Below, one piece after another: positions 3,862 to 16,188 of a DNA stretch of 51,323 nucleotides (its first letter is position 1; each line of letters starts with the position of its first letter). Made by a program: the position numbers and the translations under genes. The DNA lies in the IMG/VR virus record IMGVR_UViG_3300010885_021982, positions 1 through 51,323 of that record; one strand, 5' to 3'. Below the pieces are notes generated by a model. It was not told the origin of the DNA and ran no database searches. It saw only the letters and a list, made by a program, of their open reading frames with translations. This DNA comes from a virus.

Positions 3862-3980
3862 TGTGGGATGCACTTGTGACAATTACATTGATGGCTTTCG
3901 GTGCCGTAGCGTTAATCGTTATCTGCTCGCTCATCGGTTGGGCGGTATATTGGATGCAGAACGGAGGGCGTGATGACTGA
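3861..3980 (+). CDS. 39-residue single-span membrane protein
   Basis: Small open reading frame beginning with an ATG that overlaps the TAA of the primase gene (TAATG at 3859-3863). AGGAG lies about eight bases upstream inside the primase gene. The product starts MWDALVTITLMAFGAVALIV and ends WAVYWMQNGGRDD. Residues 5-31 are almost entirely hydrophobic, so it should be one membrane helix with a short polar C-terminus. It overlaps the next gene by eight bases. The start/stop coupling and clean hydrophobic profile support a real gene. Function unknown. Confidence 0.6.
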   Translation: MWDALVTITLMAFGAVALIVICSLIGWAVYWMQNGGRDD

Positions 3981-4212
3981 CAAGTTGGATGAAAAAGAGA
4001 TCAACGATGCGTTTGACGCCGAGTACGCCAAGCTGCCTAAGAGCAGTTTCAATCGGAAACGACAGATACAAGAGCTGGGGCTGATACGTCCAATGAATCC
4101 GTACCGTGATCAAGTCATTGAAGAAGTCGCGCAACACATTGAGAAGCTGAAAAGCTTCGGCAAGGACACTATCGACTCATTGGCAATCTATGTAAGGAGC
4201 CTGAAAAAATGA
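3973..4212 (+). CDS. small unknown early protein (79 aa)
   Basis: Starts at ATG 3973, preferred over GTG 3970 because GGAGG at 3963-3967 is then five bases away. The product is charged and predicted helical (MTDKLDEKEINDAFDAEY...), with no recognised domain. Its TGA overlaps the ATG of the zinc-ribbon gene (ATGA at 4209-4212), showing translational coupling. Function unknown. Confidence 0.65.
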   Translation: MTDKLDEKEINDAFDAEYAKLPKSSFNRKRQIQELGLIRPMNPYRDQVIEEVAQHIEKLKSFGKDTIDSLAIYVRSLKK

Positions 4213-4457
4213 AGTGCGATCAATGCCAAGGAGACAAAGTAGCAGTTGTAGAAACGACCAAGCACGAGGGGTCAGTGTATCGCTGGCGCTACTGCAGGCT
4301 GTGCTTCCATCGCTTCAAGACAAAAGAGGACCTCTTTACCGGTAGCATACCACAGGTCAATAGAAAATACGTTTCAAAGCGATTAGTAGATGCTGAGGAA
4401 AAAGAATTTCAAAAGGGTTATACGTCAAAGTCTTTACAAGACGTGTGGAAGGTTTAA
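4209..4457 (+). CDS. NrdR-like zinc-ribbon protein (82 aa)
   Basis: A small zinc-ribbon protein, probably DNA-binding. C3-x2-C6 (MKCDQCQGDKV) and C29-x2-C32 (YCRLCFHRFKT) form a four-cysteine knuckle pair. Spacing and flanking residues (a valine/threonine strand, then WRYCRLC-FHRFKTKE) closely resemble the N-terminal zinc ribbon of the NrdR repressor. The NrdR ATP-cone domain is absent; the remaining 45 residues are basic and polar. It is the last gene before the terminator at 4554. A transcription-regulatory role is inferred from the fold only. Confidence 0.65.
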   Translation: MKCDQCQGDKVAVVETTKHEGSVYRWRYCRLCFHRFKTKEDLFTGSIPQVNRKYVSKRLVDAEEKEFQKGYTSKSLQDVWKV

Positions 4458-6282: not shown

Positions 6283-7049
6283 GGCTTCGCCACGTCAGCT
6301 ACAAAGGCGTTCAGTTCTATGTACCAGAGGAAGAAACGACTGAGAACGTAAACGCAGCTGACGTGGGTATGCAGCACTGGTTCAACGACTCGTTAAAGTC
6401 CACCTTGACTTACGCTGAGCAGGTATGGTGGGTCAACCGTAGCGTAGAAGACAACCTGCTGCGCGTGTTGGAGGTTTTCTGCGGGTTCGGTATGAGCACA
6501 GCTAACATAGACTCCTACCGTATCCTTGAGCATGTAGCTTTTGATATCGATCCAGGATGCACCACTGCGTTCAAGTATTTACGCCCCGATGCTAAAGTGT
6601 TTGAGGGCGACTCGTATTACATGACTCCGCTGGTTATCGAGTTCCAGCAGTTTGATTACGTCCTGCTTGAGTACAATGCAATGACGACGTACAAGGCAAT
6701 GCGTGAGCCGCAAGAGAAAGCGATGATGGATGCGGTGTTCAAGTCCCGCGCTCGCTATGTTGTCTTTGTGGATAGCGCAAAAGTGAAAGAGCATCTGCAC
6801 TACCAGACGTACTCCAAGTTTTTCGGTAGGTCTATCAGCAACTCAGCCGAGTACTTGCGCGCAGTTGATCGTTACTTTCGCGCTACCTATGGCTATCACA
6901 TCAAATCATGCGCTCATGACGGTATCAACTACACGATGCTTCTGGAAGCTAGTACTGCTCCCGGTGATTCTTTCGATATCGTTGACACTCGTGAGATCGT
7001 TAACCTCAAATTTTTCAAAGACCTAGGATACATCGATGTTGAAGTATGA
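6279..7049 (+). CDS. Rossmann-fold, methyltransferase-like protein in hypermodification operon
   Basis: Predicted SAM-binding class I fold. A motif I-like loop after a beta strand is seen as 'VLEVFCGFGMST' at residues 63-74. An acidic second-strand end is 'VAFDIDPG' at 86-93, and 'AKVFEGDSYYM' resembles motif III. The usual N6-adenine or C5-cytosine catalytic motifs (DPPY, PC) are not visible; the corresponding strand reads 'DYVLLEYNAMT'. It could methylate a modified base side chain, a protein or a small molecule, or be a degenerate fold. ATG overlaps the previous TGA, and the next gene overlaps its 3' end. Confidence 0.55.
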   Translation: MRLRHVSYKGVQFYVPEEETTENVNAADVGMQHWFNDSLKSTLTYAEQVWWVNRSVEDNLLRVLEVFCGFGMSTANIDSYRILEHVAFDIDPGCTTAFKYLRPDAKVFEGDSYYMTPLVIEFQQFDYVLLEYNAMTTYKAMREPQEKAMMDAVFKSRARYVVFVDSAKVKEHLHYQTYSKFFGRSISNSAEYLRAVDRYFRATYGYHIKSCAHDGINYTMLLEASTAPGDSFDIVDTREIVNLKFFKDLGYIDVEV

Positions 7050-7827
7050 CCCTGACTTACCGTGGCAGCGATTTGCGCTAAAGACAATCATGACTGATGA
7101 TCTTGACCCCGTATACGTTGCCTTGTACCGCTCCAATATGCCTGAAGCTCAGCTCATGCGTTGGTGTGCTGCGTTTGTTACATACTACCATATGGGAACT
7201 GCTTGTGAGCTGTGTACGCTTGAGGGCAGCGACTTCTGGCATAAACTGTGGATGATCTATGATACGGCACCGCGAGCTTCTGAGCGTAGGCATTTCCGTG
7301 GTGAGGCTGGACGTAAGGCGATTCGTCGCTGGGCGGTTGAGTACAAGACTCCTGAGGCGTTCTTTGCCGCCTGTATGCAGCCTTCCTTTATGAAGCTGCT
7401 GAATAAAGGTATCCCTCAGATTGGTACATACTTTAGCTGGAAGTGCATGGACTTGCGTGAGGCGGTGTTCGGCTATCATGTTGACTGGACAAACGCTGAG
7501 CATCACTTGGTAACGCTACCTACGCAGGGTATGCAGGTTATCTTTCCAGAGCTGGCTGAACAAGCCAAACCCGACTACGCTGCTGCCCTACATCGCGTAG
7601 CCGACGAGATCAAATACCTGAATGCCCCACCTCGCGGAGTACGTAGCTGTGGAATAGCTGAGGCTGAAACCGTATGCTGTATGGCTAAGTCGTACTACAA
7701 GAACAAGAAGCCGATAGGTAAAGACATCATCGAGAAGCGTACTGACCTGCAAGGCTACGGCGACATCGCTGATCTTATCCTATCACATATGCCTGAAGAG
7801 CCTTTTGATGCGGAGATCGTATCATGA
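7036..7827 (+). CDS. putative amino acid:DNA transferase (AADT-like)
   Basis: Candidate for the step that joins an amino acid to pyrophosphorylated 5-hydroxymethyluracil in DNA. It shows the pattern I associate with the amino acid:DNA transferase family: 'DPVYVALYR' at residues 24-32, 'RWCAAFVTYYHMGTA' at 42-56 and 'ERRHFRGEAG' at 83-92, followed by a helical C-terminal half. In known thymidine-hypermodifying phages such an enzyme acts after a 5-hmdU DNA kinase, and both kinase-like genes lie just downstream. Starts at ATG 7036 inside the previous gene. The amino acid used cannot be read from sequence. Confidence 0.7.
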   Translation: MLKYDPDLPWQRFALKTIMTDDLDPVYVALYRSNMPEAQLMRWCAAFVTYYHMGTACELCTLEGSDFWHKLWMIYDTAPRASERRHFRGEAGRKAIRRWAVEYKTPEAFFAACMQPSFMKLLNKGIPQIGTYFSWKCMDLREAVFGYHVDWTNAEHHLVTLPTQGMQVIFPELAEQAKPDYAAALHRVADEIKYLNAPPRGVRSCGIAEAETVCCMAKSYYKNKKPIGKDIIEKRTDLQGYGDIADLILSHMPEEPFDAEIVS

Positions 7828-8177
7828 CAACAGCCTACGACAGGATTGATCGCTTTTTGCGGAAAAACCTCAGTGACGATAATTACTTGTCATATAAAGA
7901 CGAACTAGATGCGATATGCCAAGCAAAAATACAACGCACAGAGCAAGACTGGGATGCACTTGCTGAGAAGCAATTGGCATCAATTACACGCGACATGAAA
8001 GCAACCGCTGAAGATGCATTGGTTCGCGCCGCGCATAAGGTGATGGCAGAGTTGGAAAGCCAAGAACCTGTGCAGGTTTCGCCGCTTGAGTTTGTTGAGA
8101 TGGTTATGGAAAAAGAACATCTGATTGGTAAACCAATATTTTGGGCTGAGTGGCCTAGCAGGGAGAAGAACACATAA
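7824..8177 (+). CDS. small unknown protein in hypermodification operon (117 aa)
   Basis: ATG overlaps the TGA of the transferase gene, and its TAA overlaps the ATG of the first kinase, so it is coupled on both sides. The product is predicted all-helical and acidic, with a short C-terminal hydrophobic patch (LIGKPIFWAEWPSRE). No family recognised. Its conserved position could reflect an accessory role in base modification, which is inference. Confidence 0.6.
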   Translation: MTTAYDRIDRFLRKNLSDDNYLSYKDELDAICQAKIQRTEQDWDALAEKQLASITRDMKATAEDALVRAAHKVMAELESQEPVQVSPLEFVEMVMEKEHLIGKPIFWAEWPSREKNT

Positions 8178-8770
8178 TGCATCACATTATCAACATACGC
8201 GGCACTAATGGCTCCGGTAAGACTACGGCTGTACGTGCGATCATGAACCACTTGACATACTACAAAGATGCTGAAACATCCAATGGGGTCTTCCTGCACA
8301 TCTACCACAACCCGCTTGGCGAGTGCGTTGCTTTCGTCGGCAAGTACGAAGGTGCGGTCACTGGCGGTGTTGATCGTGTGCGTCATGTTCGTGACGTTGT
8401 ACCTGCCTGCGCTGAAATCATCCCTTACGGACACATCGTCATGGAAGGCTTGCTGATGTCTGGACTCCAGCAACTGACCAAAGACATCGCTGATGCGTGT
8501 GAAGGTTATGGGGTCTTGCACGCTCTCACCCTTGATACTCCCAGCAATCAATGTATCGCTCAGACGATGAACAGACGCGCTCTTGCAGGCAATGAGAAGC
8601 CTTTTGATCCAGCAAAATCGCTGCTTCCAAAATACCGCGCAGTTGAGCTAGCTCACTTGAAGTTGCAGTCATGGGGTATGGATTCTAGGTTGGTGTCGCA
8701 GCGTGACGCGGTGACGCTTGCATTAGGGTTTCTAGGGGTTGTCGTTAACCCTCAGAGCGTTATAATTTAA
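8177..8770 (+). CDS. P-loop kinase, 5-hmdU DNA kinase-like (copy 1)
   Basis: Predicted to phosphorylate 5-hydroxymethyl-deoxyuridine in DNA. The first strand and Walker A 'IINIRGTNGSGKTT' occupy residues 4-17; the 'RGTNGSGK' form is characteristic of 5-hmdU DNA kinases. A central strand 'GHIVMEGLLMSG' and a lid-like 'NRRALAGNEKPFD' with clustered basic residues follow. About 200 residues fits small P-loop nucleotide kinases. It is clearly paralogous to the next gene. Alternative: a deoxynucleoside monophosphate kinase. A promoter-like element for copy 2 lies in its last 30 bases. Confidence 0.75.
   Translation: MHHIINIRGTNGSGKTTAVRAIMNHLTYYKDAETSNGVFLHIYHNPLGECVAFVGKYEGAVTGGVDRVRHVRDVVPACAEIIPYGHIVMEGLLMSGLQQLTKDIADACEGYGVLHALTLDTPSNQCIAQTMNRRALAGNEKPFDPAKSLLPKYRAVELAHLKLQSWGMDSRLVSQRDAVTLALGFLGVVVNPQSVII
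8739..8766 (+). promoter_or_regulatory. candidate sigma70-type promoter before kinase copy 2
   Basis: TTGTCG (8739-8744) and TATAAT (8761-8766) are separated by 16 bases, the best -35/-10 pair in the window. It overlaps the end of kinase copy 1 and precedes the ATG at 8792. GCGTTATAAT is shared with 5404-5413. This could give a second transcription start for kinase 2, the HMUDK/aGPT-like gene and the synthase. Confidence 0.55.
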
Positions 8771-8791
8771 TCTTAAGTTAACGGAGCGAGT

Positions 8792-9358
8792 ATGTCAAAC
8801 GTGGTTATTTCTATACGAGGTTCTAACGGTGCGGGCAAGACGTGGGTAGCCCGTAAAGTGATGGATAGAGCTGAGGGTACGTTCAAGAAAAAGGTCAACG
8901 CCACCAATGGCGTCTTGGTCAACGTATACAAAGACTTTGTCATCCTGGGGTCTTATGACCGTGTATGTGGAGGGTGCGATACGGTCAAGACTCCTCAAAT
9001 GGTCTGGGATGCTGTAGTTGAATGCGCGCAGTTTTCAAACGTAATTTATGAAGGCGTAATTGTGGGCAACGTATATGAGCCTACGATCGTACTGCACCAA
9101 CGGCTTAAAGAGATAGACGCACGGCTTGTTCCTATCTGCCTCAGCACTCCCTTCGATCAGTGCGTCGCTAATGTGAACGCTCGCCGCGCGGTGGAGGGCA
9201 AGCCTCCTATCGAGAAAACTGATAACATCTTAACAAATGACAAGAAAAATATTTCATCAGCTCGGAAACTACACAACGCTGGCCTAGAACCTCACTGGGT
9301 AAGTGCTGAGGAAGCCGTTGAAGTTATCTGTAAAGAGCTGGGGCTTGACAATGTTTGA
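8792..9358 (+). CDS. P-loop kinase, 5-hmdU DNA kinase-like (copy 2)
   Basis: Second kinase-like protein with 'VVISIRGSNGAGKTW' at residues 4-18 and the same order of strands, 'SNVIYEGVIVGN' as Walker B region and a basic lid 'NARRAVEGKPPIEK'. Overall similarity to copy 1 is visible but low outside the motifs, so the duplication is old or the copies have different roles, for example first and second phosphate addition or different substrates. The last eight bases overlap the next gene. Start ATG 8792 follows AACGGAGCGAGT. Confidence 0.75.
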   Translation: MSNVVISIRGSNGAGKTWVARKVMDRAEGTFKKKVNATNGVLVNVYKDFVILGSYDRVCGGCDTVKTPQMVWDAVVECAQFSNVIYEGVIVGNVYEPTIVLHQRLKEIDARLVPICLSTPFDQCVANVNARRAVEGKPPIEKTDNILTNDKKNISSARKLHNAGLEPHWVSAEEAVEVICKELGLDNV

Positions 9359-10253
9359 CAATCTGGCTGGTTTACCTAACCCGCTCATGCTGACAAAACT
9401 CGCTTACTTTGTTGATGAGCGTGAGCATGTGAGGCGTGAACGTGACGCTGGGGCTCCTAGACCTTGGACTGAGGATATGATCTTAGACCGGTACCGGTTC
9501 TGCAACGTACGTCGCCGTGATGATCGTGTATCAGCTTGGATTATCAATCACATCATAGAGCCTTACAAAGACAACTCACACCTGTGGTTCATGCTTTGCT
9601 GCGCTCGTTGGATCAACTGGCCACCTACACTGCAAGGGTTGATGGATGAAGGGCTATGGCCGGTTGAGCACTTTGACGCTGAAGCCTTTGGCGACTATAT
9701 AGACCGCCGAGTTGAGTCCGGTGTGAAGAGCTGGACTGGGGCGTACTTGGTCACGGCTCGACAGCTTCCTGCCGGCATGGGTAAAGGTCGCTGGGTCTCC
9801 AAGTCTATGCTAGAGCCCCTCACTCAAAAGTACGTATGGTTTGAGGACTTCTTTCTTCAAAATGACATCACTGTTGAAAAGTCTATCGAGGCTTTCAAAG
9901 GCGCGTACGGCTTTGGCACTTTCATGACTGGTCAAGTCGTCGCCGATCTGACGTATAGCCCTGTGCTGTGTAACGCTCCTGATCTTTACAGCTACGCTCC
10001 AATCGGTCCTGGCTCGACTCGTGGACTCAACCGGCTATTTGGTAGAGGGCTAGACAAGCGCATAATCCAGGATCAGTTCAACGACGAGCTGCAATACATT
10101 GCTGAAAAGGTATCAGCTTACGTAGACCTAGGTGAGCCAAAGCTGACGCTGCACGACTGGCAGAACTGCATGTGTGAGTTTGACAAGTATATCCGCACTG
10201 AGAACGGCACAGGTCGTCCCCGCTCGACTTACAAACCAGAAACAGCTTTTTAA
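9351..10253 (+). CDS. helical HMUDK/aGPT-PPlase-like thymidine-hypermodification protein
   Basis: ATG 9351 is preferred over an upstream in-frame start at 9303 that would run deep into the kinase gene. Diagnostic segments are 'RDAGAPRPWTEDMIL' (31-45), 'RYRFCNVRRRDDRVSAWI' (47-64), a helix-hairpin-helix-like 'YGFGTFMTGQVVADL' (about 185-200) and 'GPGSTRGLNRLFGR' (about 218-231). This is the family described as alpha-glutamyl/putrescinyl thymine pyrophosphorylase-like or the helical domain of 5-hmdU DNA kinases; the two names overlap and I cannot choose between them. It is often encoded beside P-loop kinases, and two such genes lie directly upstream. Probably recognises or processes modified thymine in DNA. 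Confidence 0.75.
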   Translation: MFDNLAGLPNPLMLTKLAYFVDEREHVRRERDAGAPRPWTEDMILDRYRFCNVRRRDDRVSAWIINHIIEPYKDNSHLWFMLCCARWINWPPTLQGLMDEGLWPVEHFDAEAFGDYIDRRVESGVKSWTGAYLVTARQLPAGMGKGRWVSKSMLEPLTQKYVWFEDFFLQNDITVEKSIEAFKGAYGFGTFMTGQVVADLTYSPVLCNAPDLYSYAPIGPGSTRGLNRLFGRGLDKRIIQDQFNDELQYIAEKVSAYVDLGEPKLTLHDWQNCMCEFDKYIRTENGTGRPRSTYKPETAF

Positions 10254-10262
10254 GGAGCAATG

Positions 10263-11243
10263 ATGAGAGCTTTCAATGTTAAAAACGTCAACGAGGCTTT
10301 CTCGTTAGAAATCAATGCAATTCGCTTGGAGGGCGTAGAACGTAACTCGCGTAATGGCCCAGTCATAGAGTTCAGTGAGCCGGTTGCAACGACGTATCGA
10401 GACTCGATGCAGCGCGTATTGTTTGACAAGAAACGTATGTGTAATCCGTTCTTTCACAGTATGGAAGGGCTTTGGGTCATAGGCGGTTACCGCGATGTGG
10501 AGTTCCTTGATTACTTTAACGCACAGATGAAGCAGTACAGCGACGATGGCGATACGTTCTGGGGTGCGTACGGCTGGCGCCTTCGCGGTAACAAGGGTTT
10601 TGATCAGATCGAGAAAGCCATAGCGATCTTAAAGCGTAACCCTGAAGACCGTCGCGTGGTGACTACGATGTGGGACGCTGAGCTTGACCTAGGTCAAAGC
10701 AAAAAAGACCACCCCTGCAATACTCACATCTATTGGAAGGTTCGTGACGGAGCCCTGTATATGACGGTTTGCTGCCGGTCTAACGATCTGTTGTACGGCA
10801 AACTGGGTGCGAACGTGGTGCACTTCAGCATGCTCCAAGAGTACGTTGCTCACCGCGCGGGATACAAGGTTGGTCCGTACACGCAGATGTCTGACTCGCT
10901 TCACGTGTACGTTAATATCCCAGTCTGGGACAAGGTCAAGGATACCTCGTACGTACCCGAGGACTACTATTCTACCGACTACGCTGAGCTTATCGTGCAG
11001 CCCTATGGGATGTTCAAAGACTGTGAGACTTCTGACTGGGAAGCTGACTTGCTTGACTTCATGGTTGATCCTCAAACCGATCAGCTGTTCCGCACTCCCT
11101 ACTTCCAAGAGGTCGTTCAGCCGATCAGTTTGGTTTGGTGGGAGCATAAGAAAACTCGTCATGGGTTGCGCTACCTCGATAGTATTAAAGCTACTGACTG
11201 GCGTAAGGCGTGCGAGATTTGGCTCAAAGAAAAGGAGGCATAA
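10263..11243 (+). CDS. thymidylate-synthase-fold dUMP hydroxymethylase candidate
   Basis: Thymidylate synthase superfamily enzyme. Catalytic Cys152 is in 'HPCNTHIYW', phosphate-binding 'CRSNDLLYG' at 171-179, Asn184 in 'LGANVVHFSM', and His214/Tyr216 in 'SLHVYVN'. Retention of Asn (not Asp) at the base-reading position favours a uracil substrate; there is one extra residue before it compared with E. coli ThyA. Beside 5-hmdU kinase-like genes it most likely makes 5-hydroxymethyl-dUMP; ordinary dTMP synthesis is the alternative. ATG 10263 is preferred to 10260 because AAGGAG at 10252-10257 is then five bases away. Confidence 0.8.
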   Translation: MRAFNVKNVNEAFSLEINAIRLEGVERNSRNGPVIEFSEPVATTYRDSMQRVLFDKKRMCNPFFHSMEGLWVIGGYRDVEFLDYFNAQMKQYSDDGDTFWGAYGWRLRGNKGFDQIEKAIAILKRNPEDRRVVTTMWDAELDLGQSKKDHPCNTHIYWKVRDGALYMTVCCRSNDLLYGKLGANVVHFSMLQEYVAHRAGYKVGPYTQMSDSLHVYVNIPVWDKVKDTSYVPEDYYSTDYAELIVQPYGMFKDCETSDWEADLLDFMVDPQTDQLFRTPYFQEVVQPISLVWWEHKKTRHGLRYLDSIKATDWRKACEIWLKEKEA

Positions 11244-13728: not shown

Positions 13729-14469
13729 GTGAGTGATTGGAAAGAAAATTTAATTGTAGGTAAGCAAGCCCTGCCCCCACGAATTTGTATTTATGGCGGG
13801 CACGGCATCGGTAAGAGCACATTGGCTAGCACCTTCCCTGCTCCTATCTTTATCTCAACTGAGGATGGTTTGGCGTCTTTGGACATCACATCATTTCCTC
13901 GCGCTGAGACCGTTGATGACATTGCGCAAAGTATTCGCTCGCTGATCAAAGAAGAACATGAGTTCAAGACCGTGGTGCTGGACACAGCCGACTGGTTGAT
14001 TGAGCCTTTGATCACGGCTGATATCGAGTCCAAGCATGACGCTAAAGATCTATCATACGGCAAGGGTGCCATGATGATCGCTGAGTCGTTTCGTGAGCTG
14101 CTGACTGGCTTTGATGTGTTGCGCAAAAAGCGTGACATGAACATCGTCATTCTGGCTCATTCGGCTACAGTGAAGTACGAAGACCCTCGCTCTGAGCCTT
14201 ACGATCGTTTCCAGCCCAAGCTGTCCAATCGCTGCAATGCTATATTGCAAGAGTGGGTCGATGTGCTGGCTTTCGCAAGTTTTCGAGTGATTGTCAAGAA
14301 GTCCGATGCGGGCTTCGGTAACCAAGTATCGCGCGGTATCACCACTGGAGAACGTCTTCTCCATGTCGTTGAGAACCCTGCATACGTCGCAAAGAATCGG
14401 TACAACTGCCCGGACACCATCCCTATGGTTTTCGAGAAGCTGGCTGAGACTATCCCTGTCAAACAGTAA
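13729..14469 (+). CDS. Sak4-like RecA-fold single-strand annealing ATPase
   Basis: AAA/RecA-type ATPase, about the size of the phage Sak4 group, which assists homologous recombination with SSB. Walker A 'GGHGIGKST' is at residues 23-31 and Walker B 'TVVLDTADW' at 81-89. A later strand 'MNIVILAHS' ends in a polar residue, like RecA motifs. GTG start at 13729 with AGGAGG just upstream. The SSB-like gene follows 14 bases downstream, then an exonuclease and a resolvase, which fits a recombination module. Confidence 0.75.
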   Translation: MSDWKENLIVGKQALPPRICIYGGHGIGKSTLASTFPAPIFISTEDGLASLDITSFPRAETVDDIAQSIRSLIKEEHEFKTVVLDTADWLIEPLITADIESKHDAKDLSYGKGAMMIAESFRELLTGFDVLRKKRDMNIVILAHSATVKYEDPRSEPYDRFQPKLSNRCNAILQEWVDVLAFASFRVIVKKSDAGFGNQVSRGITTGERLLHVVENPAYVAKNRYNCPDTIPMVFEKLAETIPVKQ

Positions 14470-14483
14470 GAGGAGTATTTAAT

Positions 14484-15020
14484 ATGGCAAGATTTGGATT
14501 CAATGCGGGTGACTATGAACCCGACACAGGCGGTGGCGGTTCTTATGAGCCTATACCTGATGGCGAGTATCAGCTGATGTGTGAGGAAGCTGAGGACAAG
14601 AAAACTTCCGCTGGTACTGGTGTGTACATCAAAGCCAAGTTCCGCGTTCTCGGTCCTACGCATATTGATCGTTTGATCTTCATGAACTTCAACATCCAGA
14701 ACCCCAGCGCCAAAGCTGAGGAAATTGGACGTCGTCAAGTGTCTGGTTGGGCTGCTGCTTGCGGTAAACCTAATGCGGCTGACACTGATGAGCTGATCAA
14801 TCTTCCTTTCTACGCTGATGTTGCGACTGAGCCAGGAAGTGGTCAGTACGGTCCGCAGAACCGCATTAATGGTTACAAAGTTGCCGCTTCCGCTGCCCCA
14901 AAGGCATCACCAGCTCCAGCTGCAAAGCCTACCCCTGTTGCGGCTGCATCTACCCCTGCTCCATCTACTACCTCTAAGCCTCCGGCTCCTGCAGGTAAGA
15001 AAGCTCCTTGGGACGATTGA
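14484..15020 (+). CDS. DUF669/SSB-like single-stranded DNA-binding protein
   Basis: Predicted phage SSB. The N-terminal 110 residues look like an OB-type fold ('PIPDGEYQLMCEEAEDKKTS...YIKAKFRVLG'). They are followed by an Ala/Pro-rich linker and a short acidic tip 'KKAPWDD', which mimics the protein-docking tail of bacterial SSBs. About 40 residues of linker are low complexity. ATG 14484 with AGAGGAG upstream. Placed directly after its probable partner, the Sak4-like ATPase. Confidence 0.75.
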   Translation: MARFGFNAGDYEPDTGGGGSYEPIPDGEYQLMCEEAEDKKTSAGTGVYIKAKFRVLGPTHIDRLIFMNFNIQNPSAKAEEIGRRQVSGWAAACGKPNAADTDELINLPFYADVATEPGSGQYGPQNRINGYKVAASAAPKASPAPAAKPTPVAAASTPAPSTTSKPPAPAGKKAPWDD

Positions 15021-15022
15021 TC

Positions 15023-15352
15023 ATGGTAACTCAAGCAAAGAAACCCCCACCGCCGCCGGTTGAAGACGCTGCTGATAGCACTCCTGTGCCCTACGCAGTT
15101 CCTATAACTCTGGAGTTTGAGTCTATACAAGCTCCCGTGCCCACAGACCCGATAGGATACACCGTACTTAACGATGATCAGGTACGTCGAGTAAATACGA
15201 TCAAGACGAATTTTGATGATGCAGTTAAGTATCTGGAAACTCTTCGTGACTCGTATCACGCCGGTGAGACGCAACGCGCTCTCAATATTGCAATCACTCA
15301 TGCCGAAACCGCTAGTATGTGGGCGGTCAGAGCAGTAACCAAGGCTGTCTAA
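15023..15352 (+). CDS. Acb2/Tad1-like cyclic-oligonucleotide sponge candidate (anti-CBASS)
   Basis: Proposed to bind and sequester cyclic nucleotide signals of CBASS defence. After a proline-rich 40-residue leader, two helices form a hairpin: 'YTVLNDDQVRRVNTIKTNF' (46-64) and 'QRALNIAITHAETASMWAVR' (84-103), ending RAVTKAV. This matches the pattern I know for the Acb2/Tad1 hairpin domain: 'L-x-E/D...V..iN.IK', then 'R..iA.t.l...mW..RAV'. The long N-terminal extension is unusual. ATG 15023 lies two bases after the SSB stop; its TAA overlaps the next ATG. Assigned by eye; other small helical hairpins could look similar. Confidence 0.55.
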   Translation: MVTQAKKPPPPPVEDAADSTPVPYAVPITLEFESIQAPVPTDPIGYTVLNDDQVRRVNTIKTNFDDAVKYLETLRDSYHAGETQRALNIAITHAETASMWAVRAVTKAV

Positions 15353-16188
15353 TGGCTGCTATACCGCGACATCACTCCGCTCTCGAAGACTTGATCTACG
15401 CCGCTTATGAAAAGAAGCAAAGTAAAACCCTGCGACTTAGCCGAGTTGGCGCTTCAGGTATCGGTGATGAGTGTGTCCGGTCTATCTGGTATGACTGGCG
15501 AGGCTTCTACAATGACTCCTTTAAAGGGCGTATATTGCGGCTGTTTCAGACCGGTCATCTCCAGGAGGCGCGGATTGTGCAAGATCTTAAAGACGCGGGT
15601 CTTGAGGTCTGGGAGGTTGATGCAGACACCGGACAACAATGGGTTTACACTGCTGCAAGCGGGCACTTCGTGTGCAAGCCTGACGGTGTGGTTCGTGGCG
15701 TGCCTGGAGCTGAGAAAACTCCTCATTTGTTGGAAATTAAAACGACAAATGCGAACGGGTACAAAGAGCTCTCGAGCCGTGGTGTAAAGGTCGCCAAACC
15801 TGAGCACTACTACCAGATGCAGTCCGGTATGTGGTTGGCTGGGTTGAAGCGAGCTCTTTATGTTGCGTTGCGTAAAGACGATGAGCAGTACTACATCGAA
15901 AGGATTGAGTATGACGAGGAGTGCATTGCTGATATTGAGCGCAAGCTCCACGAACTTACCTACTCGATGTCGCCTCCTCCTAGGATCGCTGAGAAGGAAA
16001 GCGATTGGCGGTGCAAGTTCTGTGATGCTAAAGATGTCTGCTGGAATGATGCGGCTCCTCTTGTGCACTGCAGAACTTGCCAGTATTCATCAATCAAAGA
16101 CGAAGGCGGTTGGGTCTGTGATAGACAGTCTATACTGCTATCCTCATCAGCTCAGGTGAAAGGTTGCGACTTATGGACGAGAATCTAA
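15352..16188 (+). CDS. Cas4/RecB-like PD-(D/E)XK exonuclease with probable Fe-S cluster
   Basis: Nuclease for recombination or DNA processing. The catalytic core is D111 ('KPDGVV'), E128 and K130 ('LLEIKTTN'), with a RecB-type Q/Y motif 'EHYYQMQSGMW' (151-161). Cys41 together with C221-x2-C224-x5-C230 matches the four-cysteine 4Fe-4S layout of Cas4 and AddB. Extra cysteines (C240, C243, C256) suggest a second metal knuckle at the C-terminus. Start ATG 15352 overlaps the previous TAA; an upstream in-frame start at 15319 would lie inside the Acb2-like gene. Confidence 0.8.
   Translation: MAAIPRHHSALEDLIYAAYEKKQSKTLRLSRVGASGIGDECVRSIWYDWRGFYNDSFKGRILRLFQTGHLQEARIVQDLKDAGLEVWEVDADTGQQWVYTAASGHFVCKPDGVVRGVPGAEKTPHLLEIKTTNANGYKELSSRGVKVAKPEHYYQMQSGMWLAGLKRALYVALRKDDEQYYIERIEYDEECIADIERKLHELTYSMSPPPRIAEKESDWRCKFCDAKDVCWNDAAPLVHCRTCQYSSIKDEGGWVCDRQSILLSSSAQVKGCDLWTRI

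Follow-up and report, generated by a model that had tools for sequence, protein, structure and literature searches.

Acb2-type nucleotide sponges, the closest described relatives of the protein considered here, are typically, if not necessarily, compact proteins of 88-94 aa that lack a leader. In the T4 member Vs.4 (PDB 7UQ2), cGAMP is contacted by Y8, H11, K23, R79 and F82, the hexamer residues L29, A66, A73 and A77 are interface positions that have been tested by mutation, the S74N substitution interferes, and T12I loses a helix cap (PMC10097602); T68M lowers binding (PMC12657230). A second structural reference is the Acb2 of Pseudomonas phages PaMx33 and PaP2 (PDB 8H2J, 8H2X), in which 9 residues precede a GY...K motif formed by Y11 and K26. 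Tad1 (PDB 7UAV, 8KBE, 8SMD) also ends in a helical hairpin, ahead of which lies an N-terminal antiparallel beta-sheet domain (PMC12043709). Short proteins matching Pfam PF24729, the Acb2/Tad1 hairpin model, include "Acb2 homolog 43" (PDB 9PTQ, 76 aa) and a family with an NNTVRHQYR motif (L016-L031 among the viral contigs compared below), all of them without a conserved Pro-rich leader.

The window, meaning the whole stretch of DNA analysed, is a virus record of 51,323 bp with a single PF24729 match, in a gene for a protein that is a member of the Acb2 family, of a leader-bearing variety linked to replication genes. We consider it probable that this protein is an Acb2-type nucleotide sponge, made together with replication proteins and keeping CBASS or related effectors inactive. 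The gene, its parts and its neighbours are as follows.

13729..14469, + strand: Sak4-like ssDNA-annealing ATPase in the same module (AAA_24, phrog_124)
14484..15020, + strand: SSB-like (DUF669) protein, the upstream neighbour (PF05037, phrog_6015)
15023..15352, + strand: Acb2-like candidate sponge gene, 109 aa (ORF; PF24729, phrog_717)
15023..15154, + strand: leader, residues 1-44, comprising a conserved first 14 residues (MVTQAKKPPPPPVE) and then a variable Pro-rich linker (Pro count, AlphaFold, dN)
15155..15349, + strand: helical hairpin domain, residues 45-109, with predicted helices at 51-77 and 81-107
15158..15160, + strand: Tyr46, aligned with T4 Vs.4 Y8 and PaMx33 Acb2 Y11
15203..15205, + strand: Lys61, aligned with Vs.4 K23 and Acb2 K26
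15275..15277, + strand: Arg85, aligned with Arg67 of PaMx33 Acb2
15329..15331, + strand: Arg103, aligned with Vs.4 R79
15352..16188, + strand: Cas4/YqaJ-type exonuclease, the downstream neighbour (phrog_1990, E=2e-82; sequence)

Sequence profiles carry the assignment. The PF24729 match covers residues 45-107 and the full profile (1-58), with E=7.2e-14 and a score of 52.2 bits, far over the curated cut-off of 27 bits; the validated PaMx33 Acb2 and RB69 Vs.4 score 66 and 65 bits, and the more distant EcP1 hairpin protein, which has no Tyr at the ligand position, scores 37.5. The model is broad, also matching relatives that lack the Tyr or lie among structural genes. The protein additionally matches PHROG 717, the source of 198 Vs.4 homologues (PMC10097602); no NCBIfam or PADLOC model hits it. 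Aligned by hhalign against three Acb2/Vs.4-like proteins, a set of 15 relatives gave a probability of 98.1% (E=6.8e-14), and a PDB search with a profile of 26 relatives placed T4 Vs.4 (1.5e-6) and Pseudomonas Acb2 (2.6e-5) first. The two-helix pattern on which an initial annotation had based the name "Acb2/Tad1-like" is present, as V-N-T-I-K at residues 57-61 and E-T-A-S-M-W-A-V-R-A-V at 95-105.

The two halves of that name fared differently. Profiles and residues agree with Acb2, and although the protein shares with Tad1 the hairpin, an EEAxMW-like second helix and the name of the Pfam model, AlphaFold shows no strands in its N-terminal part, which is predicted to be disordered; membership in Tad1 was therefore rejected, and because the beta domain is missing we call the protein Acb2-like rather than Tad1-like. 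The same absence weighs against the proposal that the fold serves here to sequester another signal, such as a Thoeris ADP-ribose signal or cyclic trinucleotides only, and that the protein is not primarily an anti-CBASS protein acting by cyclic-dinucleotide capture. That proposal draws on the hairpin shared with Tad1, which the 26-relative profile also found weakly in the PDB (E 0.06), and on features of the ligand residues described below, and we regard it as unlikely.

AlphaFold2, run with 26 sequences, predicted the two helices with a pLDDT of 96-98 over residues 51-100 and left residues 1-40 unstructured (pLDDT about 50 for 1-30 and 60 for 31-40). Vs.4 and Acb2 were the best structural matches, occupying the top four places in Foldseek, but with E values of at least 0.12; in VIA-align the best score was that of Vs.4 (Z 9.0), but unrelated two-helix proteins came close, at Z 7.5-8.8. 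Since any two-helix hairpin scores similarly, a fold match alone is weak evidence: the predicted fold is compatible with Acb2 but not diagnostic, and the argument is carried by the sequence profiles.

Residues with known roles in Vs.4 point the same way. In an ungapped alignment, the window protein has Y46, L49, N50, K61, A90, T92, A97, S98, A101, R103 and T106 at 11 functional Vs.4 positions. Eight of these (Vs.4 Y8, K23, A66, T68, A73, S74, A77 and R79) are identical to Vs.4, whereas elsewhere in the alignment identity is seen at 10 of 28 positions (one-sided Fisher p=0.04). At two of the three differing positions PaMx33 Acb2 departs from Vs.4 as well, with Leu at H11, as in the window, and Ala (Ala88) at F82, which in T4 Vs.4 is the second residue that stacks on a base; there the window protein and all its relatives have Thr106 in place of Phe, a difference that we count against the sponge reading, although given the Ala in PaMx33 Acb2 this Thr does not exclude binding. 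The spacing of 15 between Tyr46 and Lys61 reproduces that of both Acb2 Y11/K26 and Vs.4 Y8/K23. Lys61 is invariant among the 26 relatives, as are Ala90 and Thr106, and Arg85 is kept in 25; among the set of 15 relatives, Arg103 is Arg or Lys in 14, and the counterparts of the Vs.4 interface residues A66, A73 and A77 (A90, A97 and A101) never vary. The Tyr is less constant, with 10 Tyr, 4 His and 1 Ala in the set of 15 and 21 Tyr, 4 His and 1 Ala in the full set of 26.

This variation at position 46, set beside the near-invariance of Arg85 and Lys61 and the fact that the two Vs.4 aromatics are not kept together, favours a sponge for another signal, whereas retention of Tyr46, Lys61, Ser98 and Arg103 in the window protein itself speaks against it. 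With Vs.4 the protein thus shares the hairpin fold, the ASMWAxRAV second helix, the Tyr-Lys spacing and most functional residues, but its hairpin is some 14 residues shorter, a point we count against the sponge reading, and its gene lies in a replication operon, that of Vs.4 in the vs cluster. With PaMx33/PaP2 Acb2 it shares the GY...K motif, equivalents of that protein's Arg67 and Arg85, and a small residue at the F82 position, but the Pseudomonas protein has no leader, a longer inter-helix region, and MMAIIRAI where the window protein has SMWAVRAV. The NNTVRHQYR-type proteins resemble it in their short hairpin and in keeping Y, K and R.

As an Acb2-type sponge, read from its domain, predicted fold, conserved residues and gene order, the protein would act through its 65-residue hairpin, copies of which may assemble, by analogy into a hexamer, with cyclic oligonucleotides as the presumed ligands trapped in pockets between protomers that Tyr46, Lys61, Ser98 and Arg103 would line. 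Such trapping would stop the activation of CBASS or related effectors during infection, and an anti-CBASS function is a well-supported candidate.

The leader distinguishes the protein from described Acb2 sponges, being 44 residues long where that of Vs.4 has about 7, and containing 11 Pro (25%). In an alignment of 15 proteins with a leader, every hairpin has 65 residues and no indels, and the leader ranges from 31 to 54. Its Pro content is 15-28% in 13 of them and 3% in L040 and L041, contigs with the gene order of the window and more distant sequences; Pro-richness is common in the leader, not essential. In comparisons of the window with the three relatives closest to it, dN was 0.03-0.14 for residues 1-14, 0.36-0.74 for residues 15-44 and 0.12-0.26 for the hairpin; the tip of the leader is thus conserved, its low-complexity linker drifts, and the hairpin is constrained. 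Codon analysis put dN well under dS in the hairpin and the first 14 residues. A non-coding or mis-called leader was rejected, because dN is below dS, the frame is kept, and the ATG beside the SSB stop is conserved in relatives. The leader is a tail predicted to be unstructured, with a tip that is short and conserved; it probably serves as a tether or spacer and does not belong to the pocket.

The immediate neighbourhood is tight. The frame is open from the ATG at 15023 to the TAA at 15350-15352 in the window sequence, the SSB-like stop lies 2 nt before that ATG, and the exonuclease ATG at 15352 overlaps the stop codon, so the placement between SSB and nuclease genes given by the initial annotation is correct. 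Counts of promoters and terminators stayed within about 1.3 SD of shuffles and gave no support for a separate transcript. The gene is probably co-translated with those for the SSB and the exonuclease, and its product would thus be made alongside the replication machinery.

Homologues also place the gene well above chance: four other viral contigs carry one with 61-100% identity, and more distant homologues are present in many further contigs. Leader-bearing genes fall into three contexts. In type A (the window, L001-L004, L040 and L041) the order is PolA, a Pam3 gp32-like ORF, Sak4, SSB, the candidate sponge gene and the exonuclease, followed by RuvC in contigs that reach far enough; in type B (L005, L006 and L008) the gene sits between a 244-aa protein and PolA; and in type C (L034-L039, L042 and L043; read in detail for five contigs) a Pam3 gp34-like protein lies upstream, in some cases with one or two small ORFs intervening, while the downstream side carries a UvrD-type helicase and, at a greater distance, PolA. 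Members of the leader subfamily thus regularly lie among replication and recombination genes, in three phage types. Hairpin-only relatives have mixed contexts, near SSB/Sak4 (L016, L017, L019), terminase (L010, L029, L030), integrase (L022) or a capsid gene (L013).

This regularity invites a different explanation, that the protein is a replication or recombination accessory, small and oligomeric, which would act as a scaffold docked through its tail on SSB or the exonuclease and play no part against immune signals. The contact with both neighbouring genes, which suggests translational coupling, the conserved leader tip, the shared location in all leader-bearing relatives and the several hairpin-only relatives near SSB or Sak4 are in keeping with such a role. 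It would not, however, require the ligand-binding residues to be retained, the leader is very variable and is not Pro-rich in L040 and L041 despite the same neighbours, and a T4 vs.4 (acb2) knockout grows without loss in cells lacking CBASS (PMC10097602); we consider an accessory role improbable. Equally improbable in our estimate is a reading in which a disordered tail, through its short conserved tip, would tether an Acb2-like subfamily of sponges to the replication and recombination machinery, holding signal capture at the replication site or linking it to SSB or exonuclease activity.

The initial annotation had also supposed that the phage hypermodifies its bases, and that premise is well founded, as judged from predicted genes identified by Pfam in the window.

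7036-7827: amino acid:DNA transferase (ADDT)
8792-9358: 5-hmdU DNA kinase
9348-10253: helical-domain protein of 5-hmdU DNA kinase
10260-11243: thymidylate-synthase-family enzyme

A further P-loop protein is encoded at 8177-8770, inside this thymine-hypermodification cluster (7036-11243). Megablast with 16 kb of the window as query matched no phage record, implying that there is no cultured near relative. Scans of genome contigs with the family and with the exonuclease yielded just a 28% match, in an alphaproteobacterial MAG, and hence no usable host.

If the protein is an Acb2-type sponge, such sponges extend to a phage lineage for which the phage records searched contain no near relative, a variable tail is compatible with a minimal hairpin of 65 residues, a sponge gene is stably placed in the replication operons of three phage types, and one phage combines DNA protection, through the hypermodification enzymes nearby, with signal capture. 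The recurrent changes of the ligand tyrosine in close relatives would provide natural variants in which evasion of CBASS could be set against defences that sense sponges. The contigs L042 and L043, 98.4% identical, differ at codon 33, the ligand-tyrosine codon, which is CAT (His) at 2992-2994 in L042 and TAT (Tyr) at 1565-1567 in L043; this single change is notable given that sponges of this kind can also trigger the Panoptes defence (PMC12657218). L040 and L041, 90% identical, differ by Tyr to Ala at the same position.

Other observations concern the hairpin-only genes and the small upstream ORFs. Leaderless NNTVRHQYR-type genes lie near SSB or Sak4 in L016 (3479-4102), L017 (1472-2203) and L019 (1725-2384), and the link of the domain to recombination modules is thus wider than the leader subfamily. 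Two hairpin-only genes are among structural genes, at 3974-4198 after a capsid gene in L013 and at 4085-4318 between terminase and portal in L010, an odd location for an early counter-defence gene. In L038, the small ORF at 2476-2838, upstream of the candidate sponge gene, contains an internal tandem duplication in which KLAESLAPIRARKVKSQAELEMA is repeated, a feature not seen in its L034 counterpart.
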